Shown: positions 1 through 18,648, counted from the first letter of the stretch. The stretch is 61,549 bases of DNA from Pseudomonadota bacterium (GCA_018901125.1 JAHIFE010000139.1:1-61549), one strand, 5' to 3'. Numbers and translations: made by a program. The notes: generated from the sequence alone by a model not told the origin.

Positions 1-174
1 GAAATATCCGGAGGAGATCCTGCTTTGATAATGAAAGATCCTTATGGAAAAGGCTGGCTTATCGAAATAGAAAAAACAGGCGATACGGATCTTAGTGAGC
101 TGAAGAAGGGTGATGATGATGAGACGAAGGAATGGATAGAGGAACAAGCAGATGATATTGTTCCCATGGCATAG
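1..174 (+). CDS. gcvH: Glycine cleavage H-protein-like lipoyl carrier, C-terminal part
   Basis: The reading frame is open from the window edge, so only the last 57 residues are present. They contain the typical H-protein tail, with DPYGKGWLIEIE matching the conserved 'DPYG.GWL..I' strand after the lipoyl-lysine half. H-proteins carry a lipoyl arm that shuttles aminomethyl groups or other intermediates; the lipoylated lysine itself lies upstream of the window. The acidic tail (residues about 37-57, many D and E) is longer than in ordinary GcvH. The next genes include lipoate attachment, lipoyl synthase and dihydrolipoyl dehydrogenase, which fits a lipoyl carrier. It could be an LbpA-like or other specialised H-protein rather than the glycine-cleavage one; no gcvP or gcvT is visible. 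Confidence 0.8.
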   Translation, partial: EISGGDPALIMKDPYGKGWLIEIEKTGDTDLSELKKGDDDETKEWIEEQADDIVPMA

Positions 175-213
175 GCAACTTATTAAATTAATATTTGATT
201 AGGAGTAATAAAA

Positions 214-1113
214 GTGTTGACGTTTGCTCAGGAACAAAAAACCTATACAATAGGTGATGTAACAATAGGCGGTCAGCCGGGTGAAAATCCAACTGTTCTT
301 ATGGGCAGCATTTTTTACCAGGGACATCGGATTGTAAGTGATTCAGACAAAGGCATATTTGATAAACAAAAAGCAAAAGATCTGCTGGAAAAGGAAGCGG
401 AGATGTCTTCAATTACGGGAAATCCCCGTATTATTGACGTCATTGGCGATACCACACCGGCCTTGATTAATTATCTCGAATTTGTGGCTGCCAATTCCAC
501 CTCGCCTATATTGGTTGATTCACCCATCGCAAAAGTTCGTATGGATGCTATCAGACATTTTGCCAAAACAGAGGTGTTACCGAGATTGATATATAATTCA
601 ATCGAAGACCATCACAGCGAAGAAGAATTAGCCTGTATAAAAGAATGCGGGATCAAGACGGCTGTAATCCTGGCTTTTAATGTAAAGTCTATCAGGCCCA
701 AGAAACGGATTAAATTGCTTGAGGAAAAATTGCTGGGTGCTGCCCAAAGAGCGGGTGTGGAAAATATGCTTATTGATACCGGAGTACTGGACATTCCCAG
801 CATAAGCTGGTCAAGCCAGGCAATCTGGGAAATCAAGAATAAGCTGGGATATCCCGGTGGTTGCGCACCTGCAAATGCATTGTACCAATGGAAGAAGAAA
901 AAACCCAAAGGCAGTCCTGAATTCGAGGTATGCGGAACTTCAAGTTATTTGTTGCCCATCAGTTGGGGTGCGAATTTTATCCTTTACGGTCCGATTGGAA
1001 ATGCTTCCTGGGTTTATCCGGCTTGTGCAACACTGGATGCAATAATCGCCTATGGTGAGCAGGGAAAAGGGATAGATATCAAAAAAGAGCATCCTTTGTA
1101 TCGTATGTTTTAA
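214..1113 (+). CDS. mtrH: MtrH-family (tetrahydromethanopterin/tetrahydrofolate S-methyltransferase subunit H-like) methyltransferase
   Basis: This 299-residue protein resembles MtrH along its length: near the N-terminus are GGQPGENPTVLMGSIFY and a GIFDK segment, followed by SITGNPRIIDVIGDT, all typical of the family's TIM barrel. MtrH proteins move methyl groups between a pterin or folate and a corrinoid protein. Bacterial homologues usually act with corrinoid proteins in methylamine, betaine or O-demethylation pathways. The start is a GTG preceded by AGGAG at 201-205 (spacing 8). It lies 39 bp after the H-protein and 12 bp before the lipoate transferase, so it is probably in one operon with them. 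No corrinoid protein gene is within the window; one would be expected upstream or elsewhere. Family assignment is firm, the substrate is unknown. Confidence 0.85.
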   Translation: MLTFAQEQKTYTIGDVTIGGQPGENPTVLMGSIFYQGHRIVSDSDKGIFDKQKAKDLLEKEAEMSSITGNPRIIDVIGDTTPALINYLEFVAANSTSPILVDSPIAKVRMDAIRHFAKTEVLPRLIYNSIEDHHSEEELACIKECGIKTAVILAFNVKSIRPKKRIKLLEEKLLGAAQRAGVENMLIDTGVLDIPSISWSSQAIWEIKNKLGYPGGCAPANALYQWKKKKPKGSPEFEVCGTSSYLLPISWGANFILYGPIGNASWVYPACATLDAIIAYGEQGKGIDIKKEHPLYRMF

Positions 1114-1125
1114 AGGAAGACAATA

Positions 1126-1962
1126 TTGGCAGACGCGGGGAATGCCTGGCGGTTCATAGATACCGGCATTAATGACGGCTTCATGAACATGGCTATTGAC
1201 GAAGCCATGCTGGAGATGCACCTTCAGGGACAAATTCCTCCTACCATTCGCATATACAGATGGAGCCCGCCAGCTTTGTCTATAGGTTATTTGCAAAGCA
1301 TTGAAAAGGATGTTGACCAAAATAAATGTCTGGAATTGGGCATAGATGTGGTTCGCAGACTTACCGGCGGTCGTGGTGTGCTGCATGGTGATGAATTAAC
1401 TTATTCAGTAATTGCTTCAGGAAAATGCGGATTGCCCGGTACTATATTACAATCTTACCGGATTATCAATGAAGGTTTAATTGCTGCGTACCGCATTCTG
1501 GGATTAGAAGTAAACCTGGTATCAAATGAGAAAGTACTTTCATCTGCTTCTTGTTTTGCAGGAGCTGCAACAGCAGATTTGACCTGCCGCGGGCGAAAAA
1601 TTGCAGGTGGCGCCCAGTTTAGAAGGGGCGATGCAATATTGCAGCATGGCTCTTTGCCTATTGTTCTTGATTTCGATTTATGTATTGCCGTTCACAAATT
1701 TTCAACCCCGGAAATACGCGGCAGAGCATTAAATACTTTACGTAAAAAGGCTACGGATATCAAAACGGCTTTAGGAAAACAAATTGATTGGCAGGAATTG
1801 GTTCATGCACTTTTTGCAGGATTCCAAAAATCATTGGGAATTAAACTTTACAAAGACAGATTAACATCTGCCGAGATTGAACTGAGCCGGAAGCTGGTGA
1901 AAGAAAAATATTGCACTACCGCCTGGAATGATTTTGGAGTGTGTAATGGTAAAAGAAGATAG
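1126..1962 (+). CDS. Lipoate-protein ligase A / LipM-type octanoyltransferase
   Basis: A 278-residue member of the BPL/LplA/LipB cofactor-transferase family. Visible motifs are RRLTGGRGVLHGDELTYS (about residues 77-94), GRKIAGGAQ with the conserved lysine near 158, and LQHGSL near 172. A cysteine at about residue 143 (SASCFAG) sits where LipM octanoyltransferases have their catalytic Cys, so it may transfer octanoate from acyl carrier protein to an H-protein rather than ligate free lipoate. The start is TTG with AAGGAAG 6 bp upstream. It overlaps the lipA start by 17 bp, which suggests translational coupling: octanoylation here, sulfur insertion by LipA next. The H-protein encoded at the window start is the obvious acceptor. 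LipM versus LplA is not settled by sequence alone. Confidence 0.85.
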   Translation: MADAGNAWRFIDTGINDGFMNMAIDEAMLEMHLQGQIPPTIRIYRWSPPALSIGYLQSIEKDVDQNKCLELGIDVVRRLTGGRGVLHGDELTYSVIASGKCGLPGTILQSYRIINEGLIAAYRILGLEVNLVSNEKVLSSASCFAGAATADLTCRGRKIAGGAQFRRGDAILQHGSLPIVLDFDLCIAVHKFSTPEIRGRALNTLRKKATDIKTALGKQIDWQELVHALFAGFQKSLGIKLYKDRLTSAEIELSRKLVKEKYCTTAWNDFGVCNGKRR

Positions 1963-2860
1963 CATTACTTCGCTGAGAATGCCTGCATGGCTTGTAAAAC
2001 CATTTCCTAAAAAAGCAAGTCAGGTTGGAGTCGGAAAGATTTTATCACGATGGCGGCTAAATACCGTTTGCAGGAGCGCCCAATGTCCCAATTTATGTGA
2101 GTGTTACTCACAGGGGACGGCAACATTTATGATTATGGGTGATATCTGTACCAGAAATTGTATGTTTTGCGCAGTTTCAGGCGGCATTCCCGGATCTTTG
2201 GAAGCAGATGAACCGGTAAGAGTAGCACTTGCAGTAAAAGATATGGGGCTAAGCCATATCGTAGTTACCTCAGTAACAAGAGATGATTTGCCGGATGGCG
2301 GTGCTATGCACTTTGCTGCAACTATTAATGCTATTCGAAAGGTTAATCCCGACACTACGGTTGAAGTACTGGTGCCCGATTTTAAAGGATCTCAGACTTG
2401 CGTTGAAACAGTTGTGAAAGCAGTACCCGACATCTTTGCTCATAATCTTGAAACGGTGCCAGGCTTGTATAAGAACGTTCGTCCAATGGCGGATTACCGT
2501 CGTTCTCTTGAAGTATTGAAGTCAGCGAAAGACTTAAATAAAGGCATATATACAAAATCCGGCATAATGCTGGGTTTGGGAGAGACGGAAGCAGAAATTA
2601 TTGCTGTGATGCAGGATCTTCGTATAATAGACTGTGATTTTCTTACTTTGGGACAATATCTGAGTCCTTCAGAGGATCATCTTCCGGTGAATAAATTTAT
2701 TTCACCTGAAAAGTTTGAGGATCTGGCACAGATAGGTCAAAAGATGGGATTTAGCGGAGTAGCCGCCGGGCCTTTTGTGCGCAGTTCGTATCACGCTAAA
2801 GAATTATTAAACATGAAAGAAGCAAGCATTCAAAGCCCGGATTGCAGCTTAGCTGTTTGA
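1946..2860 (+). CDS. lipA: Lipoyl synthase
   Basis: Radical-SAM enzyme of 304 residues that inserts two sulfurs into protein-bound octanoate. Both iron-sulfur sites are present: the auxiliary cluster C-x4-C-x5-C (C42, C47, C53 in VCRSAQCPNLCEC) and the radical-SAM C-x3-C-x2-C (C68, C72, C75 in CTRNCMFC). The C-terminal RSSY motif, which supplies a ligand to the auxiliary cluster, is also there (FVRSSYHA). I chose ATG 1946 because GGAG at 1936-1939 is well spaced; an in-frame ATG at 1928 would add six residues and deepen the overlap with the upstream gene. Located directly after the octanoyltransferase, as the pathway order predicts. Confidence 0.95.
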   Translation: MVKEDSITSLRMPAWLVKPFPKKASQVGVGKILSRWRLNTVCRSAQCPNLCECYSQGTATFMIMGDICTRNCMFCAVSGGIPGSLEADEPVRVALAVKDMGLSHIVVTSVTRDDLPDGGAMHFAATINAIRKVNPDTTVEVLVPDFKGSQTCVETVVKAVPDIFAHNLETVPGLYKNVRPMADYRRSLEVLKSAKDLNKGIYTKSGIMLGLGETEAEIIAVMQDLRIIDCDFLTLGQYLSPSEDHLPVNKFISPEKFEDLAQIGQKMGFSGVAAGPFVRSSYHAKELLNMKEASIQSPDCSLAV

Positions 2861-2965
2861 AGGTTCAGGGAGTTTCTTAAATTCCCATGATCGATTAATA
2901 TTATGCGTTATTTTTTGCATGTATGTATAACTATATAACTAAAATCATAAAAGAGGAGAGACGAT

Positions 2966-4210
2966 ATGATTAAACTTGGAAAGATGGAAAATGCCGGCCC
3001 GTATTACGGGAAAACACTCGAGGAATTAGAGAAAGCGGATCTGGGGTGGAGTCCGGAAGAAGAAAGAGAAATTGAGCGCTATTGTGAGCAAATTCACGCA
3101 AACTGCCAGGAAGAAGAAATGACGCCCATGGAGCGCTACAAGGCTACTTTTGCCGGTAAGGAAAGAGACCGTGCTATGATAGAGGTGGATTATTTTGCCA
3201 CATATGCAGTAAGAATTCTTGACTGTTTTGCCGGCGCATTAAAGCCTCTTGATGCTTACCAATTACCCAAATTATTGGTTAAATCCCATTTGGCAACAAC
3301 AGCCAGGTTCAAGACTGATACTCTTTTCTGTGGTCCGCTCTCTTATGGCGAAAATTTGTTCGGCTGTGATTCAAAAATTATAGACTACGGCAATCCGGTA
3401 CATATCGGAGACCCGCCGATAAAAACCGTTGAAGACCTTGAAGGTTTGGATGTTCCCGATCCGGACAAACATGCTATGTACCCTCAATATTTATGGTGGC
3501 TGAGAGAATCAAGAAGGATATTTGATAAATATGGTCTAAGCGATCTTATCCCGATCGAAGGCTCCCATTGTCACGGTCCGGACGGTTTTACTGCCGGGCA
3601 TTTATTGGGCTATAACCAGATGATGAAAGCCTTACGCAAAAATCCTGAACTTGTTCAGAAAACAATTAAATTAGCCACCGAATGGCAGATAAAGCTTGGT
3701 ATTGCTGTAACAAATCTTGGTAAGGTCGATTACAGTTATCAGTGCGGCAGTATGGGCTTTGTTCCTCACATAGAGAAGAATTTATGGATTGCTGATGAAT
3801 ACAGAGAAATCGGAAACGCAATAAAAGCGGCAATTCCTGCAGAAAATCCGATCGTATACGCCTGGGCAATGGAAGGCTGCGTTGAATGGCTGCCAACCGT
3901 ATGGGAGAAAAACGTAGCAGGTCCGGGAAGTTTTGACGGCATTATGGTAACCGGTGATATCACGAGTTATCAAAAAATATATGATTTCTGCCAGGAACAC
4001 GACATGTATGGGTCTGCTGCCCCATCTGACAGATTAATGGTAAGTGGTCCGTTATCAGAAGTTGAGGCCGAAGTTAAAGGACGCTGTGATTGTATAAAGA
4101 AATCACGTACAAATAAGTGTACTCTTTCAATAGGCGCTGTCGATTATTATACATCTCCCGAACATCTTGATTTTACAATAAATGCAGCGAAGAAACACGG
4201 GAAATTCTAA
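2966..4210 (+). CDS. Uroporphyrinogen decarboxylase-fold (MtaA/MtbA-type) methyltransferase-like protein
   Basis: A 414-residue protein of the UroD superfamily. The N-terminal MTPMERYKATFAG and the central IEGSHCHGPDGFTAG and GSMGFVPH segments fit the corrinoid methyltransferase branch (MtaA, MtbA and relatives) rather than heme biosynthesis. Several Cys and His residues that could bind a methyl-transfer zinc are visible, but I cannot assign the ligands. It has a strong Shine-Dalgarno (AGAGGAGAG) before ATG 2966. It follows lipA by about 105 bp and precedes dihydrolipoyl dehydrogenase; with MtrH upstream and a RACo-type activator downstream it probably acts in corrinoid-dependent methyl transfer. 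Substrate unknown. Confidence 0.75.
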   Translation: MIKLGKMENAGPYYGKTLEELEKADLGWSPEEEREIERYCEQIHANCQEEEMTPMERYKATFAGKERDRAMIEVDYFATYAVRILDCFAGALKPLDAYQLPKLLVKSHLATTARFKTDTLFCGPLSYGENLFGCDSKIIDYGNPVHIGDPPIKTVEDLEGLDVPDPDKHAMYPQYLWWLRESRRIFDKYGLSDLIPIEGSHCHGPDGFTAGHLLGYNQMMKALRKNPELVQKTIKLATEWQIKLGIAVTNLGKVDYSYQCGSMGFVPHIEKNLWIADEYREIGNAIKAAIPAENPIVYAWAMEGCVEWLPTVWEKNVAGPGSFDGIMVTGDITSYQKIYDFCQEHDMYGSAAPSDRLMVSGPLSEVEAEVKGRCDCIKKSRTNKCTLSIGAVDYYTSPEHLDFTINAAKKHGKF

Positions 4211-4272
4211 ATCCTATGCTATAGCTCCTGCTTTGCAAGGAAGAATTATAAAAGTTATACTGTAGTATTTAT

Positions 4273-4330
4273 ACCTCCTTTTGAGATAAGAAAACAGTGT
4301 TGATTCTGTGGCCGGAACTCAAAAGGAGGT
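4273..4330. promoter_or_regulatory. Inverted repeat pairing a Shine-Dalgarno-like and an anti-Shine-Dalgarno-like sequence
   Basis: ACCTCCTTTTGAG (4273-4285) is the perfect reverse complement of CTCAAAAGGAGGT (4318-4330), with a 32-nt loop and partly matching A/T flanks. The right arm contains AAGGAGG, a strong ribosome-binding sequence, but it lies about 32 nt before the lpd ATG at 4362, which has its own weaker GAGAGG. It could be a leader RNA structure, an attenuator, or a processing site between the methyltransferase gene and lpd. No long U-run follows, so a simple terminator is less likely. Confidence 0.45.
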
Positions 4331-4361
4331 AAATATAAGCTTTGTATTATGAGAGGATTAA

Positions 4362-5756
4362 ATGGAAACTAATAAAGATGTCGTTGTTATAGGCGGAGGT
4401 CCAGGAGGATATGTAGCAGCAATCAGAGCGGCGCAACTTGGCGCATCAACGGCACTAATAGAAAAAGAAGAGCTGGGCGGCACCTGCTTAAATGTCGGTT
4501 GTATTCCCACCAAAGCTTTTGCTAAAATCGCTGAGCTTTACGGCAAGATGAAAAAGAGTAATGAAATGGGCATTAATGTTGAAGGCATTTCTTTGGATTT
4601 TCAGGCCATGCAGGCACACAAACAAAAGGTTGTAAAAACCCTTAAGGGAGGAATTGCTTACCTTCTTGAGGAAAGCAATGTGCAAGTTATTCAGGGCAAA
4701 GCCGACTTAACCGGCCCCCAAAAAGTTACAGTTACGTCAAAAGATGGTCAAACTCAGATAATCAACGCCTCACATATAATTATAGCAACCGGTGCAAAGC
4801 CTATGGAATTGCCCGGACTGGAATTTGATGGCGATAAAATATTAAACAGCACTGATATGTTGCAGCTTGAAGAAATCCCCGAATCACTTATCGTTGTGGG
4901 CGGTGGAATTATCGGAATTGAACTGGCATGCATCTATGCGCAGTTCGGCACCAAAGTTACTATGGTTGAAATCATGCCGGAACTCCTGCCTTTTTGTGAT
5001 GCAAAAGTCACATCATTGTTAAAATCCGAGCTTACTGCAAAGGGTGTGTCCATAAGTATAAAGACAAAAGTAATAAAACATGAAAGAGATGAAAAGACAA
5101 TTACTGCCACGCTGCAAAAGGGAGAAAAGGTTTGGGAAGTAAAAGCTGATAAGATGCTGGTTGCCGCTGGACGCAAGCCTTTTATCGGCGTCGGAGGCAT
5201 TGAATCTCTGGGGATAGAAACTAATAACGGAGCCATTGTTGTTAATGAATACCTCGAAACAAATGTTTCCGGCATTTATGCCATAGGAGATGTAATCGGA
5301 GGGTACCAGTTGGCTCATGTTGCAAGCCATGAAGGTACAACGGCTGCAGAAAACTGCATGGGACATAAGAAAAAAATGGATTACCGGGTAGTGCCCAATT
5401 GCATATATACGGTTCCTGAAGTTGGAATGGTCGGCATAAACGAAAAACAGGCCAAGGAACAATACTCGGAAGTTCAGGTCGGCTCATTTCCTTTTTCCGC
5501 CTGCGGCAAGGCAGTTGCAAGCGGGGACACAAAAGGTTTTGTGAAAATTATTGCCGATAAAGAATCCGGCAAAATAGTAGGAACCTTTATAATTGGAGGT
5601 ACGGCTACGGATATGATCCATGAGGCGGCCTTAGCCATGCAAAAGGGCGTTACTATTGAAGAGATAATAGAGACTATACACGCACATCCGACATTAAGTG
5701 AGTCTTTCCACGAGGCGGCAATGATTGCAGCCAAGAGGCCACTGCATTTTATGTAG
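4362..5756 (+). CDS. lpdA: Dihydrolipoyl dehydrogenase
   Basis: 464-residue flavoprotein that reoxidises dihydrolipoyl groups with NAD+. Seen in order: FAD-binding GGGPGGY (residues 11-17), the redox-active disulfide GGTCLNVGCIPTK with C42 and C47, an NAD-binding GGGIIGIE near 187, the second FAD motif SGIYAIGD, and the C-terminal catalytic HPTLSE (H442, E447). All key residues are intact and the length is normal. It lies between a UroD-type methyltransferase and a corrinoid activator, not beside gcvP/gcvT or a 2-oxoacid dehydrogenase, which makes the local H-protein its likely partner. The activator gene starts 13 bp after the stop. Confidence 0.93.
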   Translation: METNKDVVVIGGGPGGYVAAIRAAQLGASTALIEKEELGGTCLNVGCIPTKAFAKIAELYGKMKKSNEMGINVEGISLDFQAMQAHKQKVVKTLKGGIAYLLEESNVQVIQGKADLTGPQKVTVTSKDGQTQIINASHIIIATGAKPMELPGLEFDGDKILNSTDMLQLEEIPESLIVVGGGIIGIELACIYAQFGTKVTMVEIMPELLPFCDAKVTSLLKSELTAKGVSISIKTKVIKHERDEKTITATLQKGEKVWEVKADKMLVAAGRKPFIGVGGIESLGIETNNGAIVVNEYLETNVSGIYAIGDVIGGYQLAHVASHEGTTAAENCMGHKKKMDYRVVPNCIYTVPEVGMVGINEKQAKEQYSEVQVGSFPFSACGKAVASGDTKGFVKIIADKESGKIVGTFIIGGTATDMIHEAALAMQKGVTIEEIIETIHAHPTLSESFHEAAMIAAKRPLHFM

Positions 5757-5769
5757 TTTGAGGCATTAA

Positions 5770-7569
5770 ATGAGTAGTATAGTATTTGAACCGATAAACA
5801 AACGAGTTCACTGTTCGGAAGGAATAACTATTGCCGAAGTTGCCCGTTATGCCGGAGTAAGTCTGGTTTCCTCCTGCGGAAGCCAGGGTACCTGCGGTAA
5901 ATGCAGGGTCTTTATTATTTCCGGCCGTGTATCTCCTTTAACGATTGAAGAAAAAGAGAAGCTAAGCGCAAAAGATATCGAACGTGGCTGCCGCCTGGCA
6001 TGTCTGACAAGGGTTTATGACGAAGTTAAGGTAAAAATTCCACCCAAAAGTCTGATCAGTTCACAACGGTTGCAGGTTGCCGGTAACGGCATGACAGCAG
6101 CCATAAATGCTGTTGTAAAAAGATATGACATAACACTCTCACCTCCCGATATGCTTGACCAAAAATCCGATCAAACGGCGCTTCTTGCGTATCTGGACAG
6201 TCAGTACGGATTAAAAGATTTACAGATTGATCTGTCGGCACAACGCAAGCTTTCCCAAGTTCTGCGTGCAAATGAATGGAAGGCTCAGATAGTATTGCGT
6301 GGCCGGGAAATAATTATGGCCGTAGAGTCAGGGAAAAGATTGCTTGGCTTAGCAGTGGATCTGGGAACAACAAAGATAGCAGCTTATCTGGCTGATCTTG
6401 AAACAGGTGAGATTCTGGCGGCAAAAGCTGTAGTAAACCGTCAGATGGCATATGGACAGGATCTGATGGCCCGTCTGAATCATGCCATGGGCAAAGAAGC
6501 CGAAACACTAAGACAGGCTGCTGCCGATGATATCAACCAGTTGGTAAGCGAACTATGTAAAGGAACAGACCTTTCCGGTGACCAAATCATAGAAGCTGTT
6601 GTTGTGGGCAATACTGCCATGCATCATCTTTTTCTGGGTTTGCCTGTCAGGCAGTTGGCGCTGGCACCCTATATACCGGCTGTAAGCGATTCTATGGATA
6701 TTAAAGCAAGAGATTTAGGCCTTGCCATTGCCCCCGGTGCATATGTCCATCTTTTGCCCAATATTGCCGGATTTGTGGGAGCCGACCATGTTGCAGTGCT
6801 TCTTGCAACCGGAATCTATAATACTGAAAAAACGACAATCGGAATAGATATAGGCACAAATACTGAAATAAGTCTTGCAGTAAAAGATCGCCTGCTTTCA
6901 ACGTCCTGTGCATCCGGTCCTGCTTTTGAAGGGGCCCATATAAAATATGGTATGCGGGCGGAAGGCGGAGCTATAGAAAAAGTTAAAATAACCGGTTCAT
7001 CGGTAGAAATCAGAACCATAAACAACGAGCCCCCCGTCGGCATATGCGGTTCAGGTATCTTAGATGTGGTTGCTCAACTACGAAAAGCCGGTATCATTGA
7101 TCGTATGGGCAAAATGCTTGCTCATCCGCGTATTCGGGCCAGTGAAAAAGGTCAGGAATTTGTTCTTGTGTACGAAAAAGAAAGCAAAAGTGTTAATGAT
7201 ATCACCATAACCGAAACGGACATAAGTGAAATACTTATGGCTAAAGCAGCCATAGGTGCTGCTCTAAATATTCTTCTGGAAGAAACAAAACTGACATGGG
7301 ATGAGGTTGACGAAATTTTGATCGCTGGCGCTTTCGGCAGCTACATAGATGTAGCAAGCGCCATAGAGATCGGGATGTTTGCAGCTGTTCCCATGAATCG
7401 GTTTTCCCAGATAGGAAATGCCGCAGGTACCGGAGCCAAATTAGCACTTTTATCAAAAGAACAGCGGGAGTTATCAATGGCTATCACCCGCAAGGCAAGC
7501 TATGTGGAGCTGACTAATCATCCTCAGTATTTGCGCAAATTCTCCCGCGCAATCCGGCTCCCGGCATAA
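5770..7569 (+). CDS. RACo-type corrinoid protein reductive activator (2Fe-2S ferredoxin plus ASKHA ATPase domain)
   Basis: 599 residues. The N-terminal plant-type 2Fe-2S domain has C36, C42, C45 and C78 (SSCGSQGTCGKC and GCRLACL). A linker leads to a C-terminal ASKHA-fold region with two phosphate-binding motifs, LAVDLGTTKIAAY near residue 194 and IGIDIGTNTEI near 356, and GICGSGILD near 418. This is the architecture of RACo/RamA-like activators (DUF4445 family) that reduce inactive cob(II)alamin to cob(I)alamin at the cost of ATP. Its presence implies that a corrinoid methyl carrier works with the MtrH-like and UroD-like proteins. RACo-like rather than RamA-like because the iron-sulfur domain is N-terminal 2Fe-2S and not C-terminal 4Fe-4S. 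Confidence 0.88.
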   Translation: MSSIVFEPINKRVHCSEGITIAEVARYAGVSLVSSCGSQGTCGKCRVFIISGRVSPLTIEEKEKLSAKDIERGCRLACLTRVYDEVKVKIPPKSLISSQRLQVAGNGMTAAINAVVKRYDITLSPPDMLDQKSDQTALLAYLDSQYGLKDLQIDLSAQRKLSQVLRANEWKAQIVLRGREIIMAVESGKRLLGLAVDLGTTKIAAYLADLETGEILAAKAVVNRQMAYGQDLMARLNHAMGKEAETLRQAAADDINQLVSELCKGTDLSGDQIIEAVVVGNTAMHHLFLGLPVRQLALAPYIPAVSDSMDIKARDLGLAIAPGAYVHLLPNIAGFVGADHVAVLLATGIYNTEKTTIGIDIGTNTEISLAVKDRLLSTSCASGPAFEGAHIKYGMRAEGGAIEKVKITGSSVEIRTINNEPPVGICGSGILDVVAQLRKAGIIDRMGKMLAHPRIRASEKGQEFVLVYEKESKSVNDITITETDISEILMAKAAIGAALNILLEETKLTWDEVDEILIAGAFGSYIDVASAIEIGMFAAVPMNRFSQIGNAAGTGAKLALLSKEQRELSMAITRKASYVELTNHPQYLRKFSRAIRLPA

Positions 7570-7632
7570 AAGAGAATAGCTCATAAGTTCATGAGCTGAT
7601 GAGTTGATAAGAAAAAAAGGTGTTTAATTAAT

Positions 7633-8244
7633 ATGGATCAGAAAACAGAAGAGAATTTGAGCACCTTATGCGAAGAGGCTAAAAAATTAGGTGCAATTGA
7701 TGCAAAAGCCATCAAAGCATCCGATATTATTGTTGACCCCAGAGTTAATTTGAAATGCCGGGTGCCCATATGTGGTTTTTATGGTAATAGTTTTATGTGT
7801 CCTCCCCATGTAATGAGTGCTTCCGAATTTCAGGAAATAGTATCCAAATATTCTTATGCAGTTATTATTCAAGACGTAAAGTCTTTTAAAGATGATGTAA
7901 CGCAAAATAAAGATGATTTTGCCGAAGTATTTAAGGATAAGAGTTACCAGAAGTCTTTGCTCTCAGCAGCAAAAGAATTTGGTGAAATAATAAATAAAAT
8001 AGAAAGCAAGTGCTTTGGTTTGGGATACCGTTTTGCGGCAGGTTTTGGCGCAGGTACTTGCGGGCTATGTGAAGAGTGTGCGGTAAAAATCCCCGGAGAA
8101 ACTTGCAGGCATCCGTTTAAAGCCAGACCATCTATGGAAGCAGTAGGTATAGATGTGTTTAGTACAGCTGAAAGGGCCGGATTCAAAGCCGATACGCCCA
8201 CAATGGATAAAGTAACAATTTATGGGATTGTTTTAGTTAATTAA
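7633..8244 (+). CDS. DUF2284 cysteine-rich metal-binding protein
   Basis: 203-residue soluble protein matching the DUF2284 pattern. Cysteines cluster in three places: CRVPICGFYGNSFMCPPH (about residues 42-60), a C-x2-C-x2-C group near residues 142-149 (CGLCEEC), and a final ETCRHPFKARPSMEA. Such spacing suggests an iron-sulfur or other metal site. Function is not established; family members are often found near methyltransferase and corrinoid genes in anaerobes. It follows the corrinoid activator by 63 bp, where a small hairpin (AGCTCAT/ATGAGCT, 7578-7597) sits, and precedes the MoxR gene by about 50 bp. A role in metal or redox maintenance of the methyltransferase system is inference. Confidence 0.7.
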   Translation: MDQKTEENLSTLCEEAKKLGAIDAKAIKASDIIVDPRVNLKCRVPICGFYGNSFMCPPHVMSASEFQEIVSKYSYAVIIQDVKSFKDDVTQNKDDFAEVFKDKSYQKSLLSAAKEFGEIINKIESKCFGLGYRFAAGFGAGTCGLCEECAVKIPGETCRHPFKARPSMEAVGIDVFSTAERAGFKADTPTMDKVTIYGIVLVN

Positions 8245-8293
8245 TTTTTGATATCATGATTGATATTTATAAGCTCATGGAAAGTTAAACTAA

Positions 8294-9235
8294 ATGCATG
8301 ATACTATAGCACAAATACAGCAATTGCACAGTATTATAGGCAGAGAAGAGGAATTGGAATTGTCCTTGATAGCAGCCGGGGCTGGAAAGCATATTCTTCT
8401 ATCCGGTACTGTAGGTGTCGGTAAAACAACAATTGCTATGGCTGTTGCATCTCACCTTGGAAGAAACTGCCTGAGAATAGACGGAGATGAACGTTATACC
8501 GAACAAAAACTGGCAGGATGGTTTGATCCGCCTCTTGTTATGGCAAAGGGCTATACGAAGGAAGCCTTTATACAGGGGGCTCTGACCTTGACTATGGAAG
8601 AAGGCTCCATTCTGTTGCTAAATGAATTAAACCGGATGCCGGAAGGAACCCAGAATGTTCTTCTTTCCGCTATGGATGAGAAGAAGATCTATATCCCGAA
8701 ATACGGCAAAGTGGAAGGCAAAGAAGGATTTCTGATTATTGCAACACAGAATCCCGATGAATATATAGGCACATCACAGTTAAGCGAGGCGCTGAAAGAT
8801 CGTTTTATATGTATCACACTCTTTAATCAGAATGAAGATGAGGAAATTGAGATTGTAAAGCTTCGTTCCAGGTGCCCCGACGAACAAATCATTACTCTTT
8901 CAGTAATTTTTACACGGCTAACCAGAGATAAACAGGCCATAAGACGTGGTTCGTCGATCCGCGGCGCCATTGATCTTGCTGATATATTTTACAGCGCCAA
9001 TAAATCATTTAACGATAATCCCGAAGCCTGGGTAAAATGCGCAAAGCTTGCTTTTTCCACAAAGATAGAGCTTAACGATTTCTCTCATGAAAATTTTCTT
9101 GAGCTTCTTAAAAAACTTGCGCTCATGTCCTTAGAAAAATATAAGCAGCGCTTAACTTCGCCAAAGCGTGATGTATCAGCTAATACAACTGCTACCCTCT
9201 CCGATTTCGACGGGGATCAAAAAAAAAATTATTAA
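8294..9235 (+). CDS. MoxR-family AAA+ ATPase
   Basis: 313 residues. The Walker A motif GTVGVGKTT is near residue 38, the Walker B region GSILLLNELNRMPEG near 105, and a sensor-like IIATQNPDEYIG near 148, followed by the arginine-containing LSEALKDRF. MoxR ATPases act as chaperones that insert cofactors or activate metalloenzymes, usually with a VWA-domain partner, and one is encoded directly downstream. The coding region ends in a run of ten A residues (9219-9228), after which the downstream gene's frame is open in the -1 frame. The role here could be maturation of the methyltransferase or corrinoid machinery; this is inferred from position. Confidence 0.85.
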   Translation: MHDTIAQIQQLHSIIGREEELELSLIAAGAGKHILLSGTVGVGKTTIAMAVASHLGRNCLRIDGDERYTEQKLAGWFDPPLVMAKGYTKEAFIQGALTLTMEEGSILLLNELNRMPEGTQNVLLSAMDEKKIYIPKYGKVEGKEGFLIIATQNPDEYIGTSQLSEALKDRFICITLFNQNEDEEIEIVKLRSRCPDEQIITLSVIFTRLTRDKQAIRRGSSIRGAIDLADIFYSANKSFNDNPEAWVKCAKLAFSTKIELNDFSHENFLELLKKLALMSLEKYKQRLTSPKRDVSANTTATLSDFDGDQKKNY

Positions 9236-9258
9236 TTGATGTTGATGATCAAAAATTT

Positions 9259-10179
9259 TTGCAGGAATTACGCAGCGCCATAGATTTTTTACATTATGAA
9301 GAAATTATTCCTCTTCTTTATCGTTTGCCCCGATCTTTGAATGACATTTTTAATAGCGATTTTTTCAACCCTTTATTGGAAATGGCAAAAAGTATGGAGA
9401 CCGGATTTTCCCAGGTAAAGCTCCTTTATCTTATGCAAAAACGTGCAAAATGGGAGCACAGGATGGAAGTCCATAAGATACTTTTGGGTAAAATTGTTTA
9501 TCTATCGTCAAAAATAGCATCACAAGCGGCCAGAAATACAATAACAGTAACCAGGCCATATATGCCGGGACTTGTAGACATTGATATAGATTATACCCTG
9601 GAGGAACAACCGGGAGATCCGTCTCTGATACATGAAAATCTTTACTGCCATGAAAAAATATTAAAGCAGAACTCCTATGTGCTTATGCTTGATGCATCAA
9701 ATTCCATGCGTCCTGAAAAAGCCGCAGTAGCAGCTATAGCTACAGGAGTATTTGCCGGAAAGCTTCGTAATGATTTTTACGGTGTGCTGTCTTTTGCCCG
9801 GGATACAAACATAATTAAGCGTCTTTATGAACCGCATGTTCTGGAACCTCTGGTTGATAAAATGCTTGATATTGAAACAGGCGGTGCCACGAACATAAGA
9901 AAAGCTCTTTTAGACGGTCTTTCTCTTTTGAACGAATCAAAAACAATGCACAAAACCGGTATTTTAGTAACTGATGGATGGGCAACAAAAGGAGGCGATC
10001 CGGTTGAGATTGCTGCAAAGTTTGATAGATTACATGTGCTTGGGATATCATTTGGAACCGGCGGTTCGGACCGGGCTACAAATGTGCTTATGGCTCAAAA
10101 AGGGCATGGGCGCTACAGATTTATTCAAAGATTTGATGATTTGCCGATAGCTATAGCAAAGATAATCGCCAATAAATAA
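9259..10179 (+). CDS. VWA-domain protein, MoxR partner
   Basis: 306 residues as read from TTG 9259. The C-terminal half is a von Willebrand A domain with the metal-ion-dependent adhesion site: YVLMLDASNSMRPEK (D-x-S-x-S pattern near residues 150-156), a threonine-bearing GGATNIRKAL, and GILVTDGWATKGG. The N-terminal half is helical with no recognised domain. VWA proteins pair with MoxR ATPases for metal insertion or complex assembly. No Shine-Dalgarno precedes TTG 9259, and the frame is open upstream through the A10 tract of moxR, so translation may depend on the upstream gene or on slippage. Confidence 0.8.
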   Translation: MQELRSAIDFLHYEEIIPLLYRLPRSLNDIFNSDFFNPLLEMAKSMETGFSQVKLLYLMQKRAKWEHRMEVHKILLGKIVYLSSKIASQAARNTITVTRPYMPGLVDIDIDYTLEEQPGDPSLIHENLYCHEKILKQNSYVLMLDASNSMRPEKAAVAAIATGVFAGKLRNDFYGVLSFARDTNIIKRLYEPHVLEPLVDKMLDIETGGATNIRKALLDGLSLLNESKTMHKTGILVTDGWATKGGDPVEIAAKFDRLHVLGISFGTGGSDRATNVLMAQKGHGRYRFIQRFDDLPIAIAKIIANK

Positions 10180-10503: not shown

Positions 10504-12456
10504 ATGAGTGATCAATTTCAATATCTATTTACTCCTTTTAAGATCGGCCCTGTAACCATAAAAAACCGGATATTTTTTCCTGCCCACGGAACAAAATATA
10601 CTGACGAATCTCATATGATGACTCAAAGGTATGTTGAGTATCAAAGAGCCAGGGCTAAAGGAGGCGTTGGTCTGATTGTTGCCGGAAGCATGAACATAAT
10701 GTTTAACAGCAGAAATATTTACGGCATTATGGAAATGTATGATGAGCGCATTGTCGAAAGATTAAAAACGCTTGTTGAGGCTGTGCATGCTGAGGGCGCA
10801 AAGCTGTTTGTTCAGTTAATGCATGCCGGAAGAACGGCGGATACTGAGTTAACGCAAATGCCGCTTTGGAGCGCATCACCCACTCCGGCTGGAGGACGTG
10901 CAGTGCCCAAGGAGATGGAGATTGAAGATATTAAAGAGGTTATAGCTGCATATGCCAAGACCGCACAGTTTGCCAAAGATGCCGGTCTGGATGGTTTGGA
11001 GATTCACAGTGCTACGGGTTATTTGCCTGAACAGTTCATGTCGCCTTATACAAACAAAAGGACGGATGAGTACGGAGGAAGCCTTGAAAATCGTGTGAGA
11101 TTTCCTTTGGAGGTTATGGCGGCCATCCGGGAGCAAGTAGGATATGATATGGCTCTGGGTATAAGGATGCCCGGTGATGAGTTTGTGCCCGGAGGGCTTA
11201 ATATTGATGATACAACAGAGATCGGCAAAATCTTTGAGGAAAGCGGGTATCTTGACTATATTTCAATTTCAGGCGGATTCTACGAAGGAATATTTACTAT
11301 CGGAACAGGCATGCACACTCCGTTAGGGCTGTTAAATCCTTATGCCGCCCGTTTTAAAGAATCAGTAGATCTGGCCATAGGAGTAGCTCTCAGGATCAAT
11401 GATCCCATTCAGGCTGAAAAGATGCTTGCAGAAGGTCAGACGGATTTAGTCGGTATGTGCAGGGCATTGATAGCTGATCCTGAGCTGCCCAAAAAAGCTA
11501 TGGAGGGAAGAATAGATGAAATTCGTTCCTGCATAGCATGTAATCAGGGTTGTATAGGAAGAGCCATGAAAGGCAGGCCGCTTACATGCTTTCAAAATCC
11601 GGTTACAGGAAAAGAAAAAGAAATAGGAACCATTGAGCCTGCAAAAACGAAGAAGAAGGTTATGGTCATCGGTGGTGGTCTTGCAGGTATGGAGACAGCA
11701 AGGGTTGCCAAATTAAGAGGCCATGATGTTACTCTCTATGAAACAGCTAATGAACTGGGCGGTCAGATCCTTATCGCAGCCAAAGCGCCAAACAGAGCAG
11801 AAATTGCAGGTTCGGTGAGATACAGAGTCAGACAACTGGAATTGCTGGGAGTAAAGGTAAATCTTGGAGTGACGGTAACACCTCAGATGGTAGAAAAAGA
11901 AGCGCCAGATGCTGTTGTTGTAGCAACAGGTTCATTGACCGCTAAATCTCCGGTACCTGGTGGAGATCAGGATAATGTAGTCAATGTATGGGATGTGCTT
12001 TCAGATAAAGTTGAGCTTGGTGAAAATGTCATAGTTGTTGATGGCGGAGAAGGACACTGGCAATTTATGAGTACTGCAGAGTACATAGTTCAAAAGGGCA
12101 AGCAGGTGGAAATGGTGTCGGCTCTGACATTTATCGGGTTTGATCTTATTGCTACAACGGATTTACCGGCTTCTTATATAAGGCTTCGTTCCAAAGGTGC
12201 GGTATTCAGCCCCAATACGATAGTAAAAAGTATTTCAGGAAACACGGTGGAACTCATAGACATATATGCCGGTGCTGTAAGAAAAGTTGAAGGGGTTGAT
12301 AATGTAGTTATGGTTACTCACAACAGGGCTAATAACGAATTATATAAAAGCCTTAAAGGAAAAGTTAAAGAATTGCATTGTGTTGGTGACTGTGTAGCTC
12401 CTCGAAAGGGAATAGATGCAATTTATGATGGATATACAACAGGAATAAAAATATAA
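10504..12456 (+). CDS. Old-yellow-enzyme family NADH:flavin oxidoreductase (2,4-dienoyl-CoA reductase / 2-enoate reductase type)
   Basis: 650 residues with the three-part layout of 2,4-dienoyl-CoA reductase, BaiCD and 2-enoate reductase. First comes an FMN TIM barrel (residues about 1-335) with HAGRTA and DGLEIHSATGYL. Then a 4Fe-4S motif with C343, C346, C350 and C362. Last is an FAD/NAD(P) domain starting at VMVIGGGLAGMETA near 385. Such enzymes reduce C=C bonds of enoates or dienoyl-CoAs, or run in reverse. The FAD half lacks some length compared with fadH-type enzymes, but the motifs are intact. It heads a same-strand group with a SnoaL-like protein, a ferredoxin and an AOR-type oxidoreductase. 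Substrate not deducible. Confidence 0.88.
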   Translation: MSDQFQYLFTPFKIGPVTIKNRIFFPAHGTKYTDESHMMTQRYVEYQRARAKGGVGLIVAGSMNIMFNSRNIYGIMEMYDERIVERLKTLVEAVHAEGAKLFVQLMHAGRTADTELTQMPLWSASPTPAGGRAVPKEMEIEDIKEVIAAYAKTAQFAKDAGLDGLEIHSATGYLPEQFMSPYTNKRTDEYGGSLENRVRFPLEVMAAIREQVGYDMALGIRMPGDEFVPGGLNIDDTTEIGKIFEESGYLDYISISGGFYEGIFTIGTGMHTPLGLLNPYAARFKESVDLAIGVALRINDPIQAEKMLAEGQTDLVGMCRALIADPELPKKAMEGRIDEIRSCIACNQGCIGRAMKGRPLTCFQNPVTGKEKEIGTIEPAKTKKKVMVIGGGLAGMETARVAKLRGHDVTLYETANELGGQILIAAKAPNRAEIAGSVRYRVRQLELLGVKVNLGVTVTPQMVEKEAPDAVVVATGSLTAKSPVPGGDQDNVVNVWDVLSDKVELGENVIVVDGGEGHWQFMSTAEYIVQKGKQVEMVSALTFIGFDLIATTDLPASYIRLRSKGAVFSPNTIVKSISGNTVELIDIYAGAVRKVEGVDNVVMVTHNRANNELYKSLKGKVKELHCVGDCVAPRKGIDAIYDGYTTGIKI

Positions 12457-13144: not shown

Positions 13145-13412
13145 AAAGCTTTCTGCATAACTTTCTGATACCGTTCAGTTACGTCTTTTCCTAAGCACCT
13201 CTAATTCTAATACTAATTGTTCTTTGTACGGTTAACGATAATTCCCAGCTTTCTTTTGGAAGAGATGATCTTAAATAAGAATAAGCTGTATAATTTTTCA
13301 TCAATTCATAAAATAATGTTTGCATTGTTTTTTAGGTTTAAAGTCATTTTTTTGGCTGTAATGTAATTTACAGTATTTTATAAACATAACTGTATTTTTA
13401 AGGAGGATGTTA

Positions 13413-13904
13413 ATGGAAAAGAAAACAGATGGGGTTTCAGCAGATAAAACTGCATTCTATCCAAAAGCAATGGGATATATATCCATGGTTGATCCCAAGG
13501 AGTCGGTTTGCCAGGATTGCAGAAGCTGTGAGATGTATTGTGCAGCTGTCCATGATGCAGCATGCGGTCTGGAACTTAACAGAATATGGGAATCCAGGGA
13601 TCCGTTTCGCGGTGAGTATTTTGCTTATAGCTGTAAGCAGTGTATAGCTCCGTCATGTGTTGCAGCCTGCCCTGAAGACGCAATGTATATTGATGAGAAG
13701 ACCGGCGCCAGATGTATAGATGAGGAAAAGTGTAATGGATGTGCAGCATGTATAAAAGCCTGTCCTGTAGAACCTCCGAGGATCAACTATAATAGTGTGA
13801 AGAAGAAAGCTGTTAAGTGTGATCTTTGCAAAGACAGGCCTGATGGTCCGGTATGTGTTCAGATGTGTCCGACCATGTGTCTTACTTTAAAGAAATATAA
13901 ATAA
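13413..13904 (+). CDS. Polyferredoxin-type electron carrier with four cysteine groups, partner of the AOR-family oxidoreductase
   Basis: 163-residue ferredoxin of the DmsB/AOR-associated type. Cysteine groups: CQDCRSCEMYC, CKQCIAPSCVAACPE, CNGCAACIKACP, and CDLCKDRPDGPVCVQMCP; these fit up to four 4Fe-4S clusters. I placed the start at ATG 13413, 6 bp after AGGAGG (13401-13406); ATG 13407 is too close to that site. The AOR-family gene begins 17 bp downstream with its own GAGGAGGTG, so the two are almost certainly co-transcribed and this protein carries electrons to or from the tungsten enzyme. Confidence 0.88.
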   Translation: MEKKTDGVSADKTAFYPKAMGYISMVDPKESVCQDCRSCEMYCAAVHDAACGLELNRIWESRDPFRGEYFAYSCKQCIAPSCVAACPEDAMYIDEKTGARCIDEEKCNGCAACIKACPVEPPRINYNSVKKKAVKCDLCKDRPDGPVCVQMCPTMCLTLKKYK

Positions 13905-13921
13905 ATTGAGGAGGTGATAAA

Positions 13922-15913
13922 ATGAGTGAGCAATATGGATGGGCAGGACAAATACTGAGAGTTAATCTCACTACAGGTGAGTTCTCTACAGTTGATACGA
14001 TGAAATATGTTCCAAAATATATAGGCGGATATGGGATAGCGCTCAGGTTGTGCTGGGAAGAAATGAAACCTGGAATCAAGGCATTCGATCCTGAGAATAA
14101 AGTTTTTATTATGAATGGAGTTGCATCGGGAACCATGTCCCCATCTTCCGGAAGAGTTAATTTTCTTAGCATGTCGCCCCAAAGTTATCCCGAGCAGATG
14201 ACCAACACATCAATAGGTGGGCATTTCCCCGCAAGGCTTAAGTGGAACGGTTATGACGGAATTATTCTTGAAGGAAAATCTGCCGAGCCCTGTTATCTTG
14301 TAATTAAAAATGGCAAACCAAGCTTGGAATCGGCAAAAGGTCTCTGGGGATTGGGGCTGATTGACTCACAGCAACTGCTGCAAGACCGTCACGGTAAAAA
14401 CCGTTGCGACATCTATGGAATCGGTCCTGCAGGTGAGAATCTTATCCGTTATGCAATTGTTGGTTGCGGAGCACACAATGCAACAGGGCAAGGTGGAATG
14501 GGCGCAGTATTAGGTTCCAAGATGCTTAAAGCCATTGTCCTGGTCGGAGGAAAACATCAGGTTAAGGTCAAAGATACGGAAGCAGCTATTAAGGCAACGT
14601 TGGAATTTTATCCGAAAAAGAGAAAACGTCCTTTAATTTATGCTGATTTAGGAGATAAACCTAATAATCCGTGGTGGGAAGAATGGACAGGCGGAAAAGA
14701 CATGTTTGATAATCATGCCAAAGATTGGATGGGCAACATCCACAATATGCCTTATCCGATTTTTGCCAAATCATGTGCTACCGGTTGTCTTGGCGGCTGC
14801 GGTTTTTTCGAATTTAAAAATGTACCGGCAGTTTCCCGTCCAGGACTTATAACAGGAATGAGCGGCTGCGTACACACCCGATATGAGCAGTTTTTCGACA
14901 GGCTTGAGGGGGAAAGAAATTTCGAAAAAGGTTTTGAAGTCCATGTATTGGCCCAACAATTAGGTTTTAACCATCATGAGATTAACTACGGCATAGTACC
15001 CTGGCTGCATTATACGAAAGCATTGGGAATTGATACGGAATCTTTGATGGGTATGCCGACTGATGTTCGGAACCATGAATGGTGGATCAAGCTGCTAAAC
15101 ATGATTGCTTATAGAAAGGGTTTTGGAGATACGCTTGCCGAAGGTTTGAGAAGAACCGTTGAGAAACTTGGTCCTGAAAAATACTGGTATCCGGAATATC
15201 AAGGTCCTGAAGCAGCTCGTGAAGAAGCTGCAAACCCGGTAAAGTTTCCGGTAGCCGGAATCGGCGGATGGGGATATGCTTCAAGAGGTATTCTTGCCGA
15301 TCATGCTATGGGTCCAGCTGCCGCACTCCCGGGAGCCTTGTGCTGGATGATTGACACACGCGATCCTCATCACAATAAATGGCCTGATTGGATACACAAT
15401 GATTTTATCGGCTTTATAATGAAAGAGCCTGATAAGTATGGCAGCTCTTTTGTTGTGAAATGGGCCAAGGATGCCACAATGCGCGGGATTTTAATCGATT
15501 GTTTGCCTGCGTGCTTTCAGTTCCCATTAAGAAAGTATATGGGCTGGCTGTGGGATCATGAAGGGATTGGGGAAGGTTCTAAATCGACAGGCCTGGAGGC
15601 CAGGCTTTTCTCTGCAGTTACAGGTGTGGAAGTTACTGAAGCCGAGTATTATAAGGCAGGAGAAAGGATCAATACATTAACCCGTGCTATATTGTGCAGA
15701 GATAATGAAAGAACTGCCAAAATGGAATGGGATGAAATAGAAAAGGTTATGTATAAAAGAATAGATATGGAAAAATTCAAGATCACTGTAGGAAATTGGT
15801 ATGAAGCGTTGGGCTGGAACAGAGAAACCGGTTATCCGACCATGGAACATCTTAAGGATATGCAACTTGAAGATCTTGCTCCAGAACTGGAAAAGATCGG
15901 TAAGTTGGGATAA
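13922..15913 (+). CDS. Tungsten-type aldehyde ferredoxin oxidoreductase family protein
   Basis: 663 residues of the AOR family. The N-terminal GWAGQILRVNLTTGEF and YIGGYGIALRL, the GRVNFLSMSPQS segment and GQGGMGAVLGSKMLKAIV are hallmark features of the tungstopterin-binding domains. The cluster-binding cysteines appear as C285-x3-C289-x3-C293 (SCATGCLGGCGFF) with a later Cys at 527 or 531; the usual spacing is C-x2-C-x3-C, so there is one extra residue. The C-terminus (GWNRETGYPT) resembles BamB-like and other AOR members. It could oxidise an aldehyde or reduce an acid, CoA ester or ring, using the ferredoxin encoded just upstream. A hairpin at 16065-16112 lies after the gene. Confidence 0.87.
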   Translation: MSEQYGWAGQILRVNLTTGEFSTVDTMKYVPKYIGGYGIALRLCWEEMKPGIKAFDPENKVFIMNGVASGTMSPSSGRVNFLSMSPQSYPEQMTNTSIGGHFPARLKWNGYDGIILEGKSAEPCYLVIKNGKPSLESAKGLWGLGLIDSQQLLQDRHGKNRCDIYGIGPAGENLIRYAIVGCGAHNATGQGGMGAVLGSKMLKAIVLVGGKHQVKVKDTEAAIKATLEFYPKKRKRPLIYADLGDKPNNPWWEEWTGGKDMFDNHAKDWMGNIHNMPYPIFAKSCATGCLGGCGFFEFKNVPAVSRPGLITGMSGCVHTRYEQFFDRLEGERNFEKGFEVHVLAQQLGFNHHEINYGIVPWLHYTKALGIDTESLMGMPTDVRNHEWWIKLLNMIAYRKGFGDTLAEGLRRTVEKLGPEKYWYPEYQGPEAAREEAANPVKFPVAGIGGWGYASRGILADHAMGPAAALPGALCWMIDTRDPHHNKWPDWIHNDFIGFIMKEPDKYGSSFVVKWAKDATMRGILIDCLPACFQFPLRKYMGWLWDHEGIGEGSKSTGLEARLFSAVTGVEVTEAEYYKAGERINTLTRAILCRDNERTAKMEWDEIEKVMYKRIDMEKFKITVGNWYEALGWNRETGYPTMEHLKDMQLEDLAPELEKIGKLG

Positions 15914-17825: not shown

Positions 17826-18311
17826 TCAATATTCATCGAGATGATTAAATTCAGCATTTTCGAGCCAGAACTCTGGCCTTCTTATAAATTCAATAAGCTG
17901 CTCTATTAAGAATTTATGTTTATTTTCTTCTTCAATTATTTTTCCGATAACTTCTCGATGATTATCATTTCTTGTATTATCAAGAAGTTCGCTATAGATT
18001 TCGATACTATTCTGTTCATTTGCATAAGCAACCAGATATACTTCTTCCTGAGGAGTACCATTAGAAATTTGCACAGCTCTATCCCTTATGTTCTGAAAGA
18101 TTGCTTTGGCTTCTTTCAAAACGTTAGTATCGGTTAATTCAAAATCTCTTTGTTGTTCCATACTTTCAAAAATAATATAGTGCTTTTTTTCATCTTGTGC
18201 CAGTAAGGTGAAAATTTTTTTTAAGCCGACATCGGTTGTTTTATCGGCTAAATCCGTATAAAATTTTTCTCCGTTCTTTTCTACCTGCTTTGCAAGTTCA
18301 AATATTTTCAT
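17826..18311 (-). CDS. Rubrerythrin-like ferritin-superfamily protein (no rubredoxin domain)
   Basis: 161 residues, a four-helix diiron protein. Carboxylate/His ligand motifs are visible: ELAKQVEKNGEKFY, LLAQDEKKHYIIFESM (E-x2-H type), the third-helix YANEQNSIEIYSEL, and IIEEENKHKFLIEQL (E-E-x2-H). It lacks the C-terminal rubredoxin module of classical rubrerythrin. Probable function is peroxide reduction or iron handling. The start was placed at the ATG at 18311, behind GGAGG; an upstream in-frame start would lie within the ribosome-binding site. It is followed downstream by intergenic repeats and neighbours a stress-gene group. Confidence 0.85.
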   Translation of the reverse strand: MKIFELAKQVEKNGEKFYTDLADKTTDVGLKKIFTLLAQDEKKHYIIFESMEQQRDFELTDTNVLKEAKAIFQNIRDRAVQISNGTPQEEVYLVAYANEQNSIEIYSELLDNTRNDNHREVIGKIIEEENKHKFLIEQLIEFIRRPEFWLENAEFNHLDEY

Positions 18312-18648
18312 AATAAACCTCCTCATATTCCAGTGTGGGAAAATAATAAAACATTAAAGCAAACTCCAAACTGCTTTTAAACCAATTTTCCAGCATCTGA
18401 ACGATTCTATAAATCTTGTATAATGCGTTTTTATCGGTATCCAATCCCGGAATTTACTACTGCCACAAAACTCCATTAAAATATTATCATGTATAATACA
18501 GTAACACAATCTACAGCGGCAAAACAAGAAATGACAATTTTCATAAAACCGATCCTGTGCTTAAACAAACATATATTCCTTGACATAAAACAGTCTTTTA
18601 CTTAATCTTTCCAAATTAAAATATGAGTTCCGGCCAAACTGAATCACA
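18312..18648. other. Intergenic region without recognised feature
   Basis: AT-rich sequence between the ferritin-like gene and the first palindromic repeat. I see no gene, RNA or strong hairpin; it should contain the promoter of the minus-strand ferritin-like gene. Confidence 0.4.

Follow-up and report, generated by a model that had tools for sequence, protein, structure and literature searches.

A putative lipoyl-carrier module in a corrinoid methyl-transfer operon of a Pseudomonadota bacterium

The window analysed here is a stretch of 61,549 nucleotides from a Pseudomonadota bacterium (GCA_018901125.1 JAHIFE010000139.1:1-61549). It is the entire contig C195 of genome G000 (4.45 Mb, completeness 98.4%), and nothing lies upstream of it in this assembly. 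The first ten genes bring together a protein related to the H protein of glycine cleavage (hereafter H-like), an octanoyl/lipoate transferase, lipoyl synthase (LipA), dihydrolipoyl dehydrogenase (Lpd) and enzymes of corrinoid-dependent methyl transfer. Because of the gene order, the recurrence in three genomes, the retention of motifs and the lack of glycine cleavage and 2-oxoacid dehydrogenase, we consider it highly probable that these genes form a module in which a lipoyl carrier, with its assembly and redox enzymes, is dedicated to a corrinoid C1 methyl-transfer system. The described users of lipoate are five complexes and the sHdr/LbpA system (PMC6067878, PMC10332631); a lipoyl carrier in corrinoid methyl transfer would add a further kind of use. 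No published link between lipoyl and corrinoid proteins was found in literature searches, most subscription papers being outside their coverage.

Genes of the window operon

All ten genes named in an initial annotation of this DNA are present, on one strand and at the coordinates it gave. Protein families were assigned with Pfam and NCBIfam profiles, and solved relatives through PDB searches.

1..174, + strand: H-like lipoyl protein, C-terminal 57 amino acids (PF01597 positions 81-114, 24.1 bits)
214..1113, + strand: MtgA-type methylcorrinoid:tetrahydrofolate methyltransferase, MtrH family (PF02007, 260 bits; NCBIfam MtgA, 412 bits; PDB 6SJ8)
1126..1962, + strand: octanoyl/lipoate transferase (PF21948, 121 bits; closest solved relative the lipoate ligase 2ARS, E 2e-24)
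1928..2860, + strand: LipA lipoyl synthase (TIGR00510, 362 bits, cut-off 310; both Cys triads and RSSY)
2966..4210, + strand: UroD-fold methyltransferase, type B, without H-x-C-G (PF01208, 25.6 bits; fold model)
4362..5756, + strand: Lpd dihydrolipoyl dehydrogenase (TIGR01350, 571 bits, cut-off 409; GGTCLNVGC disulfide and HAHPTLSE motifs)
5770..7569, + strand: RACo-type corrinoid activator with an N-terminal 2Fe-2S domain (PF14574, 282 bits; PF17651, PF17650, PF00111)
7633..8244, + strand: DUF2284 putative metal-binding protein, accessory (PF10050, 151 bits)
8294..9235, + strand: MoxR-type AAA ATPase, accessory (PF07728, 78 bits; Walker A GTVGVGKT)
9259..10179, + strand: VWA-domain protein paired with the AAA ATPase, accessory (PF13519, 33 bits; DASNS MIDAS motif)

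The successive gaps between these genes are 39, 12, -35, 105, 151, 13, 63, 49 and 23 bp, a spacing that makes a single transcription unit plausible for ten same-strand genes, and bases 1-7569, from H-like to RACo, look like one operon. The contig edge truncates the H-like gene, whose lipoyl-lysine region falls outside the window. All tested genes are under purifying selection, with ratios of nonsynonymous to synonymous substitution rates (dN/dS) of 0.02-0.32. The octanoyl/lipoate transferase presumably carries a LipM-type cysteine motif, and all RACo domains were found in the activator.

The product of 214..1113 had been labelled MtrH-like; it does belong to the MtrH family, but its closest relative is MtgA. 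It matches the solved methylcorrinoid:tetrahydrofolate methyltransferase 6SJ8 with an E value of 2e-105, its NCBIfam score of 412 bits lying below the family cut-off of 550, and the MtrH-type step with tetrahydrofolate has been shown for MtoA (PMC8630106). The product of 2966..4210, labelled UroD/MtaA-like, is without the H-x-C-G motif. The model of this protein (predicted local distance difference test score, pLDDT, 82.5) folds like uroporphyrinogen decarboxylase, and its best PDB fold matches are the Methanosarcina mazei methyltransferase structures 4AY7 and 4AY8, which we take to be of the methylcobalamin:coenzyme M methyltransferase type; a PDB search with the sequence returned chance matches only. 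The alignment places H-x-C-G in the UroD proteins of other corrinoid loci and not in this one, a loss that weakens a zinc-thiolate reading of the enzyme. CdmB is a zinc-free methyltransferase I of the UroD type (PMC13222342). A methyltransferase I of this family (PF01208) is present in the window and its relatives, with a catalytic role that is predicted from sequence and fold.

Recurrence of the module in related genomes

The genus comparison set comprised ten genomes. Contig C23 (L029) of G009, a record deposited as a Desulfonema limicola metagenome-assembled genome from African mines, contains a complete orthologous locus, to whose H-like protein the C-terminus of the window copy is 68-70% identical:

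L029:445-1680, UroD
L029:1687-2379, corrinoid protein
L029:2529-2978, H-like protein with the lipoyl motif ETSKAV
L029:3020-3919, MtgA
L029:3933-4763, octanoyl/lipoate transferase
L029:4702-5658, LipA
L029, between LipA and Lpd, VOC-like gene interrupted by Ns (named by eye; no Pfam match)
L029:6268-7762, Lpd, containing Ns
L029:7775-9574, RACo, the end of the syntenic locus

DUF2284, MoxR and VWA are not present at the G009 locus, where other genes come after RACo, and by gene content they are outside the conserved core of the module. The role of maturation factors proposed earlier for the MoxR/VWA pair is unsupported, since the syntenic locus stops at RACo. DUF2284 genes also occur beside unrelated corrinoid methyltransferase loci of other genera (L098:7417-8145; L099:14518-15159 and 17876-18382), and the family may recur as a partner of corrinoid methyltransferase systems.

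Genome G005 has three H-like genes, every one 3' of a corrinoid protein gene and 5' of MtgA. Two of them stand within UroD/corrinoid protein/H-like/MtgA sets, and the third is preceded by a corrinoid protein gene and followed by the start of MtgA and the contig end. A short G005 contig opens within the 3' part of an MtgA gene, after which transferase, LipA, UroD and Lpd follow in window order. Copies per genome were counted for LipA, the transferase and H-like (Lpd and RACo within the module only), and in G005 LipA and the module-clade transferase each occur once. The corrinoid protein/H-like/MtgA order is therefore seen at four places in two further genomes, with UroD ahead at three of the four; its recurrence, together with purifying selection, indicates that the window arrangement is more than chance. 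At each of these loci the corrinoid protein gene immediately 5' of H-like encodes DVHFIG; in G000 this position lies outside the window, beyond the contig edge. The genes gcvP and gcvT, whose presence directly upstream would have counted against the reading in the initial annotation, were not found; the relatives show UroD and a corrinoid protein there. Directly downstream of an H-like/MtgA set on G005 contig C11, a second methyl-transfer cluster (L068:13673-17771) encodes two 373-residue UroD proteins, a further corrinoid protein and an EtfA-like protein, with no adjacent MtgA.

Within the genomes compared, the module is narrowly distributed. The transferase clade was found only in G000, G005 and G009 among 146 relatives (E<1e-130), and the H-like clade is confined to the same three of the ten genus genomes. 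A survey of 395 phylum genomes gave MtgA matches at E<1e-40 in only 11; beyond the genus, the closest of these (53-54% identity) belong to MttB-like/corrinoid protein/MtgA/RACo sets that include no lipoyl gene, as is also true of more distant UroD sets. Across 389 genomes of the order, no H-like match from beyond the genus exceeds 44% identity, and the best of these matches (33-44%) were rejected as module members, all five inspected genomes having true operons of the glycine cleavage system (GCS). A contig scan with two clade-specific MtgA peptides (QAIWEIK and LYQWKKK) returned the G009 record alone, a result that says little on other phyla.

The H-like protein and the clients of lipoate

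The H-like protein is a predicted lipoyl carrier that lacks the aminomethyl-arm residues of glycine cleavage. Its model (pLDDT 81) superposes on the lipoylated Escherichia coli H protein 3AB9 with template modelling (TM) scores of 0.77/0.90, and all four full-length copies retain the hairpin-turn lysine that would bear the lipoyl group. The scores of 81.8 and 63.3 are below the cut-offs of both NCBIfam GcvH models (117 and 115.85, respectively). His13, Glu14 and Ser67, which hold or gate the aminomethyl arm in the E. coli H protein (PMC7733448), are replaced by Phe/Leu, Leu and Arg in four of four full-length copies. His-Glu-Trp and Ser67 occur in 25 of 25 compared GCS-type H proteins, a set chosen with an HEW-containing pattern, which leaves Ser67 as the one position compared without selection bias. 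In the phylogeny called for by the initial annotation, the H-like proteins form a separate 100/100 clade on a long branch, where the tree tool warns that long branches meet.

LipA was found in five of the ten genus genomes (G000, G005, G009, G004 and G001). It is single-copy in each of the first three, always within the module; in G004 it lies in a glycine cleavage context (GcvT, GcvH, GcvPA, GcvPB, LipB, LipA), and in G001 it adjoins E1, E2 and Lpd of a 2-oxoacid dehydrogenase. Every LipA in the genus therefore adjoins a client, which makes H-like the client in the three module genomes. In the same ten genomes GcvP was found only in G004, which serves as the positive control, GcvT only in G004 and G002, and the 2-oxoacid dehydrogenase E2 only in G001; none of the three was found in G000, G005 or G009. 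A role in glycine cleavage was accordingly rejected for want of GcvP and GcvT, and a 2-oxoacid dehydrogenase was rejected as the lipoate client for want of E2. The absence of gcvP and gcvT remarked in the initial annotation thus extends to the whole of G000, and its proposal of a lipoyl H protein with a dedicated assembly set in a corrinoid pathway is strongly supported by this absence, by the only LipA lying in the operon and by the module in two relatives. Lipoic acid probably has an undescribed job in these genomes.

As to lipoate genes elsewhere in G000, a possibility raised at the outset, there is no second LipA, but there is a second lipoyl system on contig C238 with GcvH, Lpl, LipS1, a LipS2-like protein and two GlcD/HdrD-type pairs. 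Its GcvH passes the GcvH family cut-off and has its own assembly genes alongside. This system (L026:4521-17097), found also at L031 (G005 contig C139), is non-canonical and stands in genomes without GcvP. The H protein of this type has no Glu14 (EHIW), carries the lipoyl motif QSAKWI and is flanked by the GlcD/HdrD-type oxidoreductase pairs; a geranylgeranyl-reductase-like flavoprotein is also encoded. A similar H protein (ESGKWV) lies upstream of an Fe-S protein in G001 (L119:12995-14711).

Several known systems share parts of the module. MtvBCA-AE, MtoABCD and CdmBCA have a UroD-fold methyltransferase I, a corrinoid protein with DxHxxG and a RACo-type activator, whereas the methyltransferase I of MtgABC (glycine betaine) is of the MttB type; MtoA and MtgA are MtrH-type methyltransferases II, as in the module. 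To such corrinoid O-demethylase/methyltransferase systems the module adds one H-like protein per set and a shared transferase, LipA and Lpd. With GcvH and its LipM, LipA and Lpd it shares the H fold, the lipoyl lysine, the assembly enzymes and Lpd, and it differs in the lack of GcvP and GcvT from the genome, in the three replaced residues, in sub-cut-off scores and in its long separate branch. LbpA of sHdr sulfur oxidation is also a lipoyl protein of GcvH-like type that has dedicated lipoylation genes and serves a non-GCS pathway; in contrast, the module has LipA rather than LipS1/LipS2 and stands in a corrinoid methyl-transfer operon without sHdr genes, and by eye no sHdr cluster was seen around any of the four full-length H-like genes. 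GcvH-L, from the SirTM/macrodomain operons of streptococci and staphylococci, is presumably another GcvH-like lipoyl protein outside glycine cleavage, but no sirtuin or macrodomain protein is among the ten scanned window proteins, and the GcvH-L structure 5A35 is only a distant structural match to the H-like model.

Proposed mechanism, alternatives and neighbouring genes

In the proposed scheme, for which the sequences supply a complete methyl route, methyl groups would pass from the substrate of the UroD-fold methyltransferase I to the corrinoid protein, and by MtgA to tetrahydrofolate. The octanoyl/lipoate transferase and LipA would build the lipoyl arm on H-like, and Lpd with NADH may keep this arm as dihydrolipoyl. 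Docked on its own corrinoid protein, the arm could give electrons directly or through the 2Fe-2S cluster of RACo, and so return Co(II) to Co(I) in the reaction that RACo drives with ATP. Methyl transfer alone needs no redox enzyme, whereas corrinoid repair does, and an electron relay would explain why there is one H-like gene per corrinoid protein set and one transferase and LipA per genome. The redox potential of lipoate is about -290 mV. This value fits an electron feed to corrinoid activation, lying between that of the activator cluster (-330 mV) and that of the Co(II)/Co(I) couple, which activator and ATP shift from -530 to -250 mV (PMC6739815). We regard the explanation as a whole, a lipoyl module in a corrinoid system including the relay, as rather likely, and the electron-relay step taken by itself as tentative. 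If true, the relay would also suggest how corrinoid activators receive electrons in the cell; ferredoxin and flavodoxin are named as example donors (PMC6739815). The module is compact and its proteins expressible, which makes the question directly testable.

Several observations weigh against this explanation. UroD or MttB/corrinoid protein/MtgA/RACo sets without a nearby lipoyl gene (L095-L100, L117 and L118) indicate that the electrons can come from elsewhere, and a dithiol is a two-electron donor while a corrinoid is a one-electron acceptor. The module is present in just three genomes of a single genus, H-like is truncated in the window, and G009 has a UroD/corrinoid protein/MtgA set without H-like (L101:2731-5088, contig C101), the MtgA of which is truncated to ~130 residues.

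The lipoyl arm might instead take part in the chemistry itself. A dihydrolipoyl thiol could carry the methyl group as S-methyl-dihydrolipoyl and exchange it with the corrinoid through the lipoyl sulfur, either ahead of the transfer to tetrahydrofolate or afterwards, as a bacterial, protein-bound counterpart of coenzyme M. The kinship of the UroD fold to 4AY7/4AY8, the placement of H-like, wherever it occurs, after the corrinoid protein gene and before MtgA, and an Lpd that would hold the lipoyl thiol free are all consistent with this. We nevertheless think it improbable: the H-x-C motif expected for zinc-thiolate chemistry is missing, zinc-free UroD-type enzymes such as CdmB are methyltransferases I acting on the substrate (PMC13222342), MtgA already provides a route to tetrahydrofolate, and in G009 a VOC-like gene takes the place of the second UroD type. 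It is similarly doubtful that the arm bears a substrate, a sulfur atom or a more oxidized C1 unit, with the UroD enzyme working on the lipoyl-bound compound. The arm of the H protein carries a C1 unit in glycine cleavage, and that of LbpA presumably bears cargo in sulfur oxidation. LbpA offers a precedent in being GcvH-like and having dedicated lipoylation genes (PMC6067878, PMC10332631), the altered arm cavity of H-like suggests a different cargo and Lpd would reset the lipoyl redox state; yet sHdr, GcvP and GcvT genes were not found at the locus, nor GcvP or GcvT in the genome, and the adjacent catabolic flavoenzymes are not constant between loci. A last reading, in which an ordinary operon for lipoate assembly serves glycine cleavage or some other H protein and adjoins unrelated methyltransferase genes, is largely refuted and very unlikely. 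The C238 GcvH passes the family cut-off, so LipA could serve it too, but this protein is accompanied by Lpl, LipS1 and LipS2-like genes of its own, the three module genomes lack GcvP, GcvT and E2, the H-like/methyltransferase order is seen at several loci and the aminomethyl-arm residues are lost in H-like.

Methyl-tetrahydrofolate formed by the module could be oxidized by MetV/MetF-like, HdrA-like and MvhD-like proteins encoded on G000 contig C16 (assigned by eye, except HdrA). Near these genes, on the minus strand (L027:12868-13791 and 13894-14883), are two proteins of 307-329 residues with N-terminal Cys-rich stretches and a GCV_H domain minus the lipoyl lysine. The flavoenzymes, DUF1329 and AveC-like proteins neighbouring the module loci vary from locus to locus. 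In the window, 324 bp separates the VWA gene from the next one, which encodes an Old-Yellow-Enzyme flavoprotein (10504-12456). With the mycofactocin OYE_2 model, whose cut-off is 793, this protein scores 700 bits; G005 encodes a similarly scoring homologue (L070:1393-3351) close to one of its H-like sets. Further downstream of the operon, window positions 13407-15913 encode a ferredoxin-like and an aldehyde ferredoxin oxidoreductase-like protein as a pair.

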